Assembly: GCF_900100185.1 (NCBI RefSeq)
Contig: NZ_FNEN01000008.1
Location: forward strand, 72,659-136,658
Direction: 5' to 3'
DNA: 64,000 bases
Source: Natribacillus halophilus
GTDB taxonomy: Bacteria; Bacillota; Bacilli; Bacillales; Marinococcaceae
Part shown: one piece after another, positions 59,543 through 63,646 of the stretch
Position numbering within the stretch: position 1 is the stretch's first letter
How the letters are laid out: each line of letters opens with the position of its first letter
Notes under the pieces: generated by a model
The model's database searches: none
What the model was told of the DNA's origin: nothing
The model's input: the letters and a program-made list of their open reading frames with translations, nothing else
Made by a program: the position numbers and the translations under genes

Positions 59543-61489
59543 ATGAATCCAATGATTATTTTACAATGTGATCGCATAACGAAATCTTTTGGTGCAGAAC
59601 AGATTTTACAAGATATAAAGATGGAAATCAAAAACGGGGAGCGGGTTGCGCTCGTCGGTCGCAACGGGAGCGGGAAAACAACATTGCTTAACATTATGAC
59701 CGGTCAGGAACCCTACGACAGCGGCTCTATCATGATGCCGAAATCACACACGATGGGGTTTCTCGCCCAGGATACCGGCCTTGAATCCACCCGTACGATC
59801 TGGAACGAACTGCTGACGGTCTTCTCGTCTCTTCGCGAGATCGAAGCGGACATCCGCGAGCTGGAAATGAAGATGGCCGACCCCTCCGTCTATGAAAACG
59901 ATAAAATATATGAATCCGTCGTTAATGAATACGATGAAAAGCTTGAATATTTCAGGGTCTCCGGCGGCTATCAGTACGAGGCTGATATGCGCGGTATCCT
60001 TTCGGGGCTGAATTTCGATCATCTCTCCTATGACTTGCCGGTCTCGTCATTAAGCGGCGGTCAGAAGACGCGTCTCGCCCTCGGGAAACTATTACTTTCC
60101 AAACCGGACCTTCTTATTCTGGACGAGCCGACCAACCATCTGGACATCGAAACGTTAACATGGCTGGAAAATTACTTGAACGGTTATGAAGGCGCCGTCT
60201 TGATCGTCTCCCACGATCGCTACTTTTTGGATAAAATCGTCACGAAAGTGTACGAAATCGCTCATACGAAAGCCACGTTGTATCACGGCAACTACAGTCA
60301 ATTCCTGGAGAAACGGGCTAAAGACGTGGGGCTCCAGCAGAAGGCGTATGACAAACAACAAGATGAAATTGCGCAAATGGAAACGTTCATTGCCAAAAAC
60401 ATCGCCCGTGCTTCTACGTCAAAACGGGCGCAAAGCCGGCGCAAACAGCTGGAAAACATGGAGCGGGTCGAAGCGCCTCTCGCGGATCCCAAAAGCGCGT
60501 CGATGTCTTTTGAAATCGCACAGGCGAGTGGTAACGACGTGCTTTCCGCGCATAGGCTTACATTTTCTTACCCCGGGAATGATCCTCTGTTCAGTGATAT
60601 CGACCTGGCTGTGAACAAAGGAGAAAACGTCGCGATCATTGGCCCTAACGGCACAGGTAAAACGACTTTCCTTAAAATTCTCGGCGATCGACTCGAAGCT
60701 TCTGCAGGAGAGGTTCACTACGGAAGCAAAGTCACCGTCGGCTATTATGACCAGGAGCAAACGCAGCTCAACCCGAAAAAGACAGCGCTCGATGAATTGT
60801 GGGATGAGCACCCACGCATCATAGAAAAAGAAATTCGCGCGGTGTTGGGACGGTTTCTTTTCAGTGGAGAGGATGTGTATAAACTTGTCCACAATCTCAG
60901 CGGCGGTGAAAAAGCGCGGCTCACCCTTGCCAAACTGATGATGCAAAAAGCCAACCTGCTCCTTTTCGATGAACCGACGAACCACCTCGATCTTGATAGC
61001 AAAGAAATTCTGGAAGGGGCTCTTCTTGAGTATCCGGGGACGATGGTGTTCATTTCACATGACCGGTATTTCCTAAACCGGATGTCCACACGCACCATCG
61101 AATTTTCCCGGGAGCAACAATTGCATACCTACCTCGGCAACTACGATTACTATTTGGAAAAGAAAGCGGAGGAAAAGGAACGGGCTCTCCTGCAAACCGA
61201 ATCAACAAAAGCACCTGCCACCGAAAGTTCGGATAAAAGCGCATTTGAACAGGACAAAGAGGACAAAAAAGCGGCGCGCAGGCGCCGCCGGGACATCGAA
61301 GCCACCGAGGAAAAGATCAGCCAACTCGAAGAAGAAACGGAAGCCCTGCAATCATCACTGCTTGACCCTGATATCTACGAAGACTTCCCCCGTGCCGCCC
61401 GTATTCAGGAAGACATCGAGGAGAAGGAAGCGGAATTGGAACGACTCATGGATCACTGGGAAACATTGCAGCTAGAGGACTCCGAATGA
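59543..61489 (+). CDS. ydiF: ABC-F family ATPase (YdiF-like)
   Basis: Soluble twin ATPase of 648 residues with no membrane domain. Two nucleotide domains carry Walker A GRNGSGKTT (about 38-46) and GPNGTGKTT (about 367-375), signatures LSGGQKTRLALG and LSGGEKARLTLA, each followed by DEPTNHLD. The C-terminus is a charged coiled coil. ABC-F proteins act on ribosomes in translation or antibiotic protection. Start 59543 or 59552. Confidence 0.92.
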   Translation: MNPMIILQCDRITKSFGAEQILQDIKMEIKNGERVALVGRNGSGKTTLLNIMTGQEPYDSGSIMMPKSHTMGFLAQDTGLESTRTIWNELLTVFSSLREIEADIRELEMKMADPSVYENDKIYESVVNEYDEKLEYFRVSGGYQYEADMRGILSGLNFDHLSYDLPVSSLSGGQKTRLALGKLLLSKPDLLILDEPTNHLDIETLTWLENYLNGYEGAVLIVSHDRYFLDKIVTKVYEIAHTKATLYHGNYSQFLEKRAKDVGLQQKAYDKQQDEIAQMETFIAKNIARASTSKRAQSRRKQLENMERVEAPLADPKSASMSFEIAQASGNDVLSAHRLTFSYPGNDPLFSDIDLAVNKGENVAIIGPNGTGKTTFLKILGDRLEASAGEVHYGSKVTVGYYDQEQTQLNPKKTALDELWDEHPRIIEKEIRAVLGRFLFSGEDVYKLVHNLSGGEKARLTLAKLMMQKANLLLFDEPTNHLDLDSKEILEGALLEYPGTMVFISHDRYFLNRMSTRTIEFSREQQLHTYLGNYDYYLEKKAEEKERALLQTESTKAPATESSDKSAFEQDKEDKKAARRRRRDIEATEEKISQLEEETEALQSSLLDPDIYEDFPRAARIQEDIEEKEAELERLMDHWETLQLEDSE

Positions 61490-61498
61490 ATGATCGGG

Positions 61499-61703
61499 CT
61501 TTCCACAGTTTCCACAGAGTTATGCACAAATGATCCCCTGATCAGGCGGTTATCCTAGGGCTTTACCCACAGAACAGCCAAATGATCCACAGTTTGGCTG
61601 TTCACAAGTGCAGCGTTGTTGGCAGTGGATAGGGGCGATTTATCCCCAACGTGCACAATTTTATTTTCCACATCACTCAAACAAATGCTTTACTTTTTCC
61701 ACA
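61499..61703 (+). promoter_or_regulatory. DnaA-box cluster
   Basis: Consensus boxes (TTWTNCACA): TTATGCACA at 61520-61528, TTTTCCACA at 61664-61672 and 61695-61703. One-mismatch boxes: TTACCCACA 61563-61571, TGATCCACA 61583-61591, TTATCCCCA 61640-61648, plus two TTTCCACA words at 61500-61517. All point the same way. It spans the gap between ydiF and the penicillin-binding protein gene and runs slightly into the latter's 3' end. Confidence 0.65.
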
Positions 61704-63646
61704 GTATATGCACTGCCGCCACGGTCAGCGACATCTTCGATCATCATGGAAACGAGCAGGCCTTCGTCTTCATAATCATATGCCACGAACCAGCCATTTT
61801 GTAAGTCCTCTGTGTTTTCATCTTCCTGGGAAGTCTTCAGCTCCGCTGTCCCTGTTTTCCCGGCAATCGTGATATCATCCATGACCGGTTCATATGCAGA
61901 GCCTTGGTCATCTTCAACAACGCCGCGCAACCCTTCGGTAATGATGTCAATATCTTCAGATGGCGTTACCGACTCGTGCCAAATCTCCGGGGATTCATCC
62001 TCAACTTCCAGCGTCGGCGCTAACATATCCCCATCATTCAGGAATGGTGTGAATGCTGCGGCCAAATGAAGCGGAGACATCAGCATTTCCCCTTGGCCGT
62101 AACCGGTATCGGCGAGCAGCATATCCTCATCCAGGCCATTGTCGGCGAGCTCGGATTCACTGACCGGGAATTCATACGGTACATTTTCTTCAAACCCAAA
62201 ATGTTGCATGCCCTCCGCAAAGTCACTGCTGCCCGTATCAAGCGCAGCTTGTGCAAAATAAATGTTGTCGGACGTTATCAATGCATCCTCCAGATCAACT
62301 TCCGTTAATCGATCGGATACGCGCGTCACTTCGTATTCACCCCAACTGTCATCCGGTTGCCAACTTTCGCCTTCAATATTTTTTACTTCTTCAGCATCCA
62401 GGCTATCATCCTCCAGAGCAATCGAAGCCGTCAGCGGCTTGATCGTAGAACCGGGAGAGTACAGATTGTTAAAATTTGCCGAAAAAGGCGATTCCGGATC
62501 TTCATTGGCTTCCTCGAACGCTCCTTCCGGCCAGCCAAACACAAAATGATTCGGATCATACGTCGGGGTACTCACCAGACCAATGGTTTCACCCGTTTCA
62601 GGGTGCAGGGCTACACCGGCCCCGGAGTCGCCGTCCATCTCCGAAAACATGCTCTCCTGAAAATCAGCGTCAATGGTTGTCACCACATCCTCGCCGTCTT
62701 CGACTTCTTTTTCGGCAATCACTTCTTCACTTTCCGGAATGATAATCTCCCAGCCGGTAGATCCCCGCAACGTCTCTTCATAAACATTTTCCAGGCCACT
62801 GCTTCCTACAACGGAACCAGCGTCGTATTCATCCGACGGCAATTCCTCTAAATCGTCGGCATTCACTTCACGAATATAACCCGTGATGTGGGCAGCTTCT
62901 TCAGCAAGCGGATAATAGCGCGATGTGGATTCCTGAATCATCACGCCGTCACTTTCCAGAAGCGCTTCGACGGTGTCACCCTCGCCTGGCTGAAGCTTGG
63001 TTACAGGTACAAACGTTTCGTCCCCAACCCAGTCAGCTTCAAGTTCAGTTTCGATGTCCTCTTCGGATACGTCTGTAATCTCGGATACCTCTTCAACGGT
63101 ATCTTCGTCCATTTCACCGGGCACGAGCCCGACTTCATCCACGGACGTATTGACAGCAAGACCGTCTTCATCCTGATCGAGAATTTCCCCGCGCTCAGGT
63201 TCTTCAGATATCACTTCTACGGTATCCCCATCCTCAAGTTCCGGAAAAATAAACGACGAATCCCAGTTTATTTTCCACATATCGCCATCCTCGGTCTCTT
63301 CTTCAACGAAATCGGCTTCACCGTCAAAAGCAACCTCCCCCGCGACGGTTTGCATGGAAACTTCATACGGACGGGGCGCTTCTTCCTCCTCTTCCTCTTC
63401 GGGAATGGCGGTTGTTGTAACGCTTAGATCCTCGGCTTCAACGCTTTCATAAATCGTTTCATAACGTTCCACAAATGTTTCCTGATCTATGTCATCCTGC
63501 GTCTCTTCCGAAATATATGTATACATTTGTGCAAAATCCCGTTCATTCCACGCATCCACAAATTCGTCCATCACTTCATCCGGCGTCGGCTCCTGTGAGC
63601 AAGCCGCCAGACTCACGAAAAGAAAAGGCAGTAGATATTTTTTCAT
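61673..63646 (-). CDS. Penicillin-binding protein 3 / MecA-like transpeptidase
   Basis: Class B transpeptidase lipoprotein of 657 residues; lipobox FVSLAAC gives lipidated Cys16. An NTF2-like MecA_N domain (about 22-150) precedes the dimerisation domain and transpeptidase with Ser400 in STIK, SDN (SDNIYFAQ) and KTGTAE. The extracellular part is highly acidic. MecA-type proteins resist some beta-lactams, but B. subtilis pbpC is a housekeeping relative. It is convergent with ydiF. Confidence 0.93.
   Translation of the reverse strand: MKKYLLPFLFVSLAACSQEPTPDEVMDEFVDAWNERDFAQMYTYISEETQDDIDQETFVERYETIYESVEAEDLSVTTTAIPEEEEEEEAPRPYEVSMQTVAGEVAFDGEADFVEEETEDGDMWKINWDSSFIFPELEDGDTVEVISEEPERGEILDQDEDGLAVNTSVDEVGLVPGEMDEDTVEEVSEITDVSEEDIETELEADWVGDETFVPVTKLQPGEGDTVEALLESDGVMIQESTSRYYPLAEEAAHITGYIREVNADDLEELPSDEYDAGSVVGSSGLENVYEETLRGSTGWEIIIPESEEVIAEKEVEDGEDVVTTIDADFQESMFSEMDGDSGAGVALHPETGETIGLVSTPTYDPNHFVFGWPEGAFEEANEDPESPFSANFNNLYSPGSTIKPLTASIALEDDSLDAEEVKNIEGESWQPDDSWGEYEVTRVSDRLTEVDLEDALITSDNIYFAQAALDTGSSDFAEGMQHFGFEENVPYEFPVSESELADNGLDEDMLLADTGYGQGEMLMSPLHLAAAFTPFLNDGDMLAPTLEVEDESPEIWHESVTPSEDIDIITEGLRGVVEDDQGSAYEPVMDDITIAGKTGTAELKTSQEDENTEDLQNGWFVAYDYEDEGLLVSMMIEDVADRGGSAYTVEKVKHLFE

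Follow-up and report, generated by a model that had tools for sequence, protein, structure and literature searches.

Immediately downstream of ydiF in Natribacillus halophilus lies an array of same-strand DnaA boxes which, on the evidence of sequence and gene order, is the counterpart of the gcp/ydiF DnaA-box cluster of Bacillus subtilis. It is a further example of this known type of cluster, and the surprising part is its fixed geometry. By analogy with B. subtilis, we consider it likely that the array binds DnaA, above all ATP-DnaA, in a cooperative manner, holds it from oriC, and limits early re-initiation. The array would then probably be a real replication brake.

DnaA boxes downstream of ydiF

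The window, i.e., the whole stretch of 64,000 nucleotides analyzed here (C15:72659-136658 of a 3.30 Mb genome in 47 contigs), contains at positions 61499-61703 eight matches to TTWTNCACA with at most one mismatch, all of them on the + strand. Three are exact (starts 61520, 61664, and 61695) and five have one mismatch (starts 61499, 61508, 61563, 61583, and 61640). This recount agrees with an earlier note on the same DNA, which had listed three exact and about five one-mismatch boxes in one orientation within 205 bp. The box counts of that account stand, but it had missed the fixed spacing of the boxes and the location of the last exact box within a coding sequence.

On the + strand, the array starts with slot 1 (CTTTCCACA, 61499-61507; one mismatch), which is retained in the five closest relatives, and slot 2 (GTTTCCACA, 61508-61516; one mismatch), which abuts slot 1 and is present at 10 of 18 independent loci. 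Slot 3 (TTATGCACA, 61520-61528) is exact and occurs in 14 of the 18 loci. Slot 4 (TTACCCACA, 61563-61571; one mismatch) is located 43 bp past slot 3 and is followed by slot 6 (TGATCCACA, 61583-61591; one mismatch); no equivalent of the slot 5 seen in other families exists here, and the array is shorter by ~11 bp, one helical turn. Farther downstream are a weak box (CTGTTCACA, 61598-61606; two mismatches), whose position is retained in most of the closest relatives, a one-mismatch box (TTATCCCCA, 61640-61648), a weak slot abutting the latter (ACGTGCACA, 61649-61657), which reads TTGTGCACA in two of the closest relatives, and the exact box TTTTCCACA (61664-61672), the last one of the homologous array. 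The same exact match, TTTTCCACA, recurs on the + strand at 61695-61703 within the C-terminal coding end of a penicillin-binding protein (PBP) gene and is probably incidental. Since it is PBP-coding and no counterpart was found in the closest relatives, we took 61499-61672 as the homologous array, which also includes the two conserved but weaker slots that start at 61598 and 61649.

Among all 205-bp stretches across the 64 kb, 61499-61703 has the highest box density. The same-strand maximum was eight boxes at the cluster vs. three elsewhere in the window, where other stretches held at most four boxes on both strands together, and 300 dinucleotide shuffles of the window reached a same-strand maximum of five at most and usually of three. 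For exact boxes, the maximum per 205 bp was three at the cluster and no more than two in the 300 shuffles. Genome-wide, where box density was taken from pattern searches and model searches, 352 exact TTWTNCACA matches compare with 289 matches of the reversed control pattern; as the motif is only slightly over-represented, the clustering at 61499-61703 is local. By arithmetic, three exact same-strand boxes in 205 bp are expected ~0.02 times per genome. The comparison with the whole-genome background, as proposed in the earlier note, supports a cluster beyond chance. A chance cluster or a composition effect would be in line with the one exact box in the PBP coding sequence, itself probably a chance match, but this explanation is rejected by the shuffles and reversed-pattern controls as well as by synteny, strand, and box-versus-spacer conservation (see below). 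We regard its probability as practically nil, the comparative sequence data having already refuted it.

In this draft genome, dnaA is located on a different contig (C37) from the array (C15). Instead of adjoining dnaA/dnaN, as the chromosomal oriC would, the array is a separate group of several boxes, denser than chance would allow and away from dnaA/oriC, in agreement with the earlier description of a cluster outside any obvious origin. The genome's own oriC box clusters lie on C37 on both sides of dnaA; they share the box consensus of the array, but are on mixed strands upstream of dnaA. The organism's own DnaA carries near its C-terminus the motif GGRDHTTVIHAH, which we take to be the DNA-binding signature.

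Gene neighborhood and chromosomal position

The array begins (61499) just downstream of the stop codon of ydiF and is on ydiF's strand. The ydiF ORF (59543-61489, + strand) encodes an ABC-F ATPase with the Pfam domains ABC_tran (twice), ABC_tran_Xtn, and ABC_tran_CTD. On the other side, the convergent PBP gene (61673-63646, - strand; Pfam MecA_N, PBP_dimer, and transpeptidase) occupies the place of tsaD (gcp) in relatives. Hence, the array lies directly downstream of ydiF and between convergent genes like a gcp/ydiF cluster, whereas the PBP gene is found instead of gcp as the other neighbor. In most relatives tsaD, the gcp of B. subtilis, converges on the array and ydiF from the other side, and the array was at most 2 kb from the tsaD 3' end in 45 of the 48 relatives with both on one contig (median 271 bp, measured from the match nearest the ydiF/tsaD locus, which is not always the best match of the genome). 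We therefore read the missing tsaD neighbor as a local rearrangement. The window genome carries tsaD on contig C3 (G000:C3:9620-10552, L265), ~270 bp short of the contig end, and the gene order indicates that a rearrangement split tsaD from ydiF and that the array stayed with ydiF. The earlier suggestion of a conserved position beside ydiF with a changed other neighbor is thus borne out, and gcp as a neighbor is incidental to function, a gene-order marker. Because of its ydiF side, strand, and spacing, we filed the array as the orthologous gcp/ydiF site, with the spacing and the sequence model R1 (see below) both referring to relatives other than B. subtilis.

In many relatives, ydiF and the array are separated by a conserved gene for a membrane protein of roughly 700 aa, which is encoded on the other strand than ydiF. 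Loci with this arrangement include L250, L251, L252, L253, L254, L255, L258, and L268. Two of these proteins were scanned and neither matched a Pfam family; on visual inspection, the protein is similar to alkaline-phosphatase-like membrane proteins. If the boxes regulated transcription of neighboring genes via DnaA, the location of the array upstream of the ~700-aa gene in many relatives could be explained, and other B. subtilis clusters are indeed found at promoters (sda, ywlC, and vpr; PMC4447404). However, the array is also present in genomes without the ~700-aa gene. It is no ordinary promoter element of ydiF or the PBP gene, because both genes have their 3' ends at the array, an arrangement shared with B. 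subtilis, and a promoter scan of the array boxes revealed no promoter-like site. We consider such transcriptional control very unlikely.

In each of 24 complete or near-complete genomes, the distance between the array and dnaA amounted to 6-29% of the chromosome (some chromosome lengths are rounded). The box strand was opposite to the fork direction in all 24 genomes, five of them with the array on the left arm. This orientation would suit a polar fork barrier formed by bound DnaA, but the constant box strand is a consequence of how ydiF and tsaD are invariably oriented, and separate selection on it need not be assumed. Sitting between two convergent genes, DnaA could also act as a roadblock that ends transcription, in line with a terminator scan of 61300-61900 in which no intrinsic terminator was seen; in many relatives, however, the genes on either side of the array do not converge. 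A function as roadblock or fork barrier is highly improbable in our view.

Fixed spacing and helical phasing of the boxes

Across families, the start-to-start distances from box 1 to box 6 are 9, 12, 42, 9, and 22 bp, and the extent from box 1 to two bases beyond box 6 is 104-105 bp. The window's own family lacks box 5 and has an extent of 94-95 bp, about one helical turn less. Downstream of box 6, the slots are more variable between families. Distances between pairs of boxes show a periodicity of about 10.75 bp, which places the boxes on one helical face (mean cosine of the helical phasing 0.525; highest value among 1000 sets with random spacing, 0.19). As the anchors of the 105-bp segment were chosen on an alignment, the spacing was re-tested in genomes outside this alignment. 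Of 18 loci located by boxes 4-6 alone, 14 had a box at a distance of exactly 42 bp upstream of box 4 and 10 had one at 54 bp, the background frequency of a box at a given position being 0.0013.

Compared with five close relatives, the boxes of the window array are 84-94% identical and the spacers 40-44%; over all pairs among the closest relatives, the values are 89% for boxes and 48% for spacers. While spacer sequence drifts among close relatives, spacer lengths are kept within about 2 bp. Since the spacing is fixed across families and the spacers drift, we conclude that selection acts on the array site. Drifting spacers of kept length are the trace expected if both the DnaA boxes and their geometry are under selection.

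Distribution of the array in related genomes

The ydiF 3' flank was examined in 61 genomes; 31 of these have six or more boxes within 205 bp there, most of them on the strand of ydiF. The earlier note had proposed this region for comparison with related genomes, many of which indeed contain the array with the same strand and spacing. An initial reading that many of the 61 relatives are array-less was rejected, as the model R1 found the array 0.6-4 kb farther downstream, often past an intervening gene.

The three-box search pattern TTWTNCACATTATCCACAN{10,15}TTATNCACA had 31 matches in 150 genomes of the order, where its reversed form had none; in its exact form it is too strict and misses the window's own family. 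In 25 of the 30 three-box loci retrieved, ydiF is located just upstream on the same strand, and this also applies to 18 of 22 loci in genomes that were not used to derive the pattern. One of the remaining loci is beside tsaD, three are by yfhD, and one is by an ORF resembling a gamma-type spore protein, which had no Pfam match. Of the three YfhD-like ORFs, the two that were compared with Pfam both match PF14151. The three-box pattern thus has a second site, seen in four genomes of the order (L151, L164, L170 with the array at about 1501, and L171): just downstream of the yfhD-like gene in three, and downstream of the small spore-protein-like ORF in the fourth.

R1 is a sequence-only model built from 19 arrays, with the window array left out. 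Searched against the window genome, it retrieved the window array as the best match by far (44.3 bits, E 4.6e-11), followed by a match of 17.6 bits; the own oriC box clusters matched only weakly, with about 10-13 bits (best about 13 bits). In a sample of the class, an R1 match (E ≤1e-4) was present at most 12 kb downstream of ydiF in 59 of 135 genomes with a ydiF orthologue, bearing in mind that R1 E-values are rough and related genomes are not independent samples. All 60 of 60 R1 matches near ydiF were on ydiF's strand. About 0.6 such matches would be expected by chance, as calculated for ~150 matches in genomes of ~3 Mb. Array matches were obtained in Bacillus sp. FJAT-49711, Amphibacillus, Paucisalibacillus, Halalkalibacter akibai, and Macrococcus, and a weaker one in Paenibacillus tianmuensis. 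Staphylococcus intermedius has a dense box cluster at the ydiF site with weak R1 matches. No clear array match was found in Marinococcus luteus or in the Ligilactobacillus and clostridia examined. Some lineages have lost the array, namely Marinococcus luteus (L062) and five of five genomes of the genus g11. At array-less loci (L261 and L062; G010, G017, G023, G027, and G028), ydiF and tsaD are directly convergent and about 120 bp apart. One genome (G053) has a strong second array match away from ydiF (57.7 bits; L182, G053:C2:625911-626014), followed by an ORF which by eye resembles a metallo-beta-lactamase-fold protein, and weaker array matches near ydiF as well.

Our literature search found no report of the conservation of this array, which may have been noticed earlier in Okumura 2012 or Ishikawa 2007. 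Okumura 2012 reportedly studied B. subtilis DnaA-box clusters outside oriC.

Proposed function of the array

The B. subtilis cluster that the earlier note had mentioned beside gcp/ydiF exists: it is DnaA region 4, located downstream of gcp and of ydiF, with 10 predicted sites (PMC4447404). Like this cluster, the window array adjoins the 3' end of ydiF at a place where two genes converge. The two differ in box number (10 predicted vs. eight plus weak slots) and in the other neighbor (gcp/tsaD vs. the PBP gene), and DnaA binding has been seen in vitro for the B. subtilis cluster, whereas the window array is known from its sequence. In vitro, the B. subtilis site is among the strongest DnaA regions, with apparent Kd values of 0.15 uM for ATP-DnaA and 0.33 uM for ADP-DnaA, and at 55 nM 16-fold more DNA was recovered with ATP-DnaA (PMC4447404). 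According to PMC5295017, deletion of six non-oriC clusters in B. subtilis caused early initiation, which was partly relieved when one cluster was put back; a cluster shifted to the terminus had a weaker effect, as stated in PMC5010248. DnaA titration is the published reading of these clusters (PMC5295017, PMC13220808, PMC5010248).

Based on these binding and deletion data, we infer DnaA binding and retention from oriC for the window array too. Lined up along one side of the helix where ydiF ends, its approximately nine same-strand boxes would form a binding platform, on which DnaA, above all ATP-DnaA, would load cooperatively and be held away from oriC. As the array is oriC-near in relatives, it would be copied soon after initiation, whereupon free DnaA would fall and early re-initiation would be hindered.

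The window array resembles E. coli datA in being a non-coding DnaA-box cluster outside oriC; datA restrains initiation, as would be expected of the window array by analogy. However, datA has five boxes, depends on IHF (PMC5295017), and its place is unrelated to that of the window array. With IHF, datA stimulates the hydrolysis of DnaA-bound ATP. The E. coli elements DARS1 and DARS2 are likewise non-coding and act on DnaA via DnaA boxes. They reactivate ADP-DnaA to ATP-DnaA (PMC4585315), whereas no such activity is known for the window array.

Boxes alone would suffice for a passive sink, but the families share the spacing, the strand, and the helical face as well. This fixed geometry exceeds the needs of such a sink and suggests a cooperative assembly of DnaA on one helical face of the array. 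The array might even be a shaped DnaA machine, datA/DARS-like in its working, that changes the nucleotide or oligomer state of DnaA. In addition to the kept geometry, the lack of spacer sequence conservation across families and the 16-fold preference of the B. subtilis site for ATP-DnaA at 55 nM (PMC4447404) would fit such a machine. On the other hand, cooperative titration by itself could select the spacing, B. subtilis has no IHF (PMC13220808), the protein on which datA depends, and the B. subtilis clusters have been shown only to titrate, as stated in PMC5010248. This makes a machine of this kind possible but doubtful, and cooperative titration is the reading we prefer.

Only tentatively do we see in the ydiF/tsaD array an ancient element of DnaA control in the Bacilli, fixed in its geometry, in which stereospecific assembly of DnaA on one helical face, beyond mere binding, controls initiation. 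If this is true, the array, so far taken for a simple sink, would be a counterpart of E. coli datA/DARS that is independent of these elements. The natural losses in Marinococcus and the version in the window's family that is one turn shorter offer ready tests of spacing vs. mere box number.
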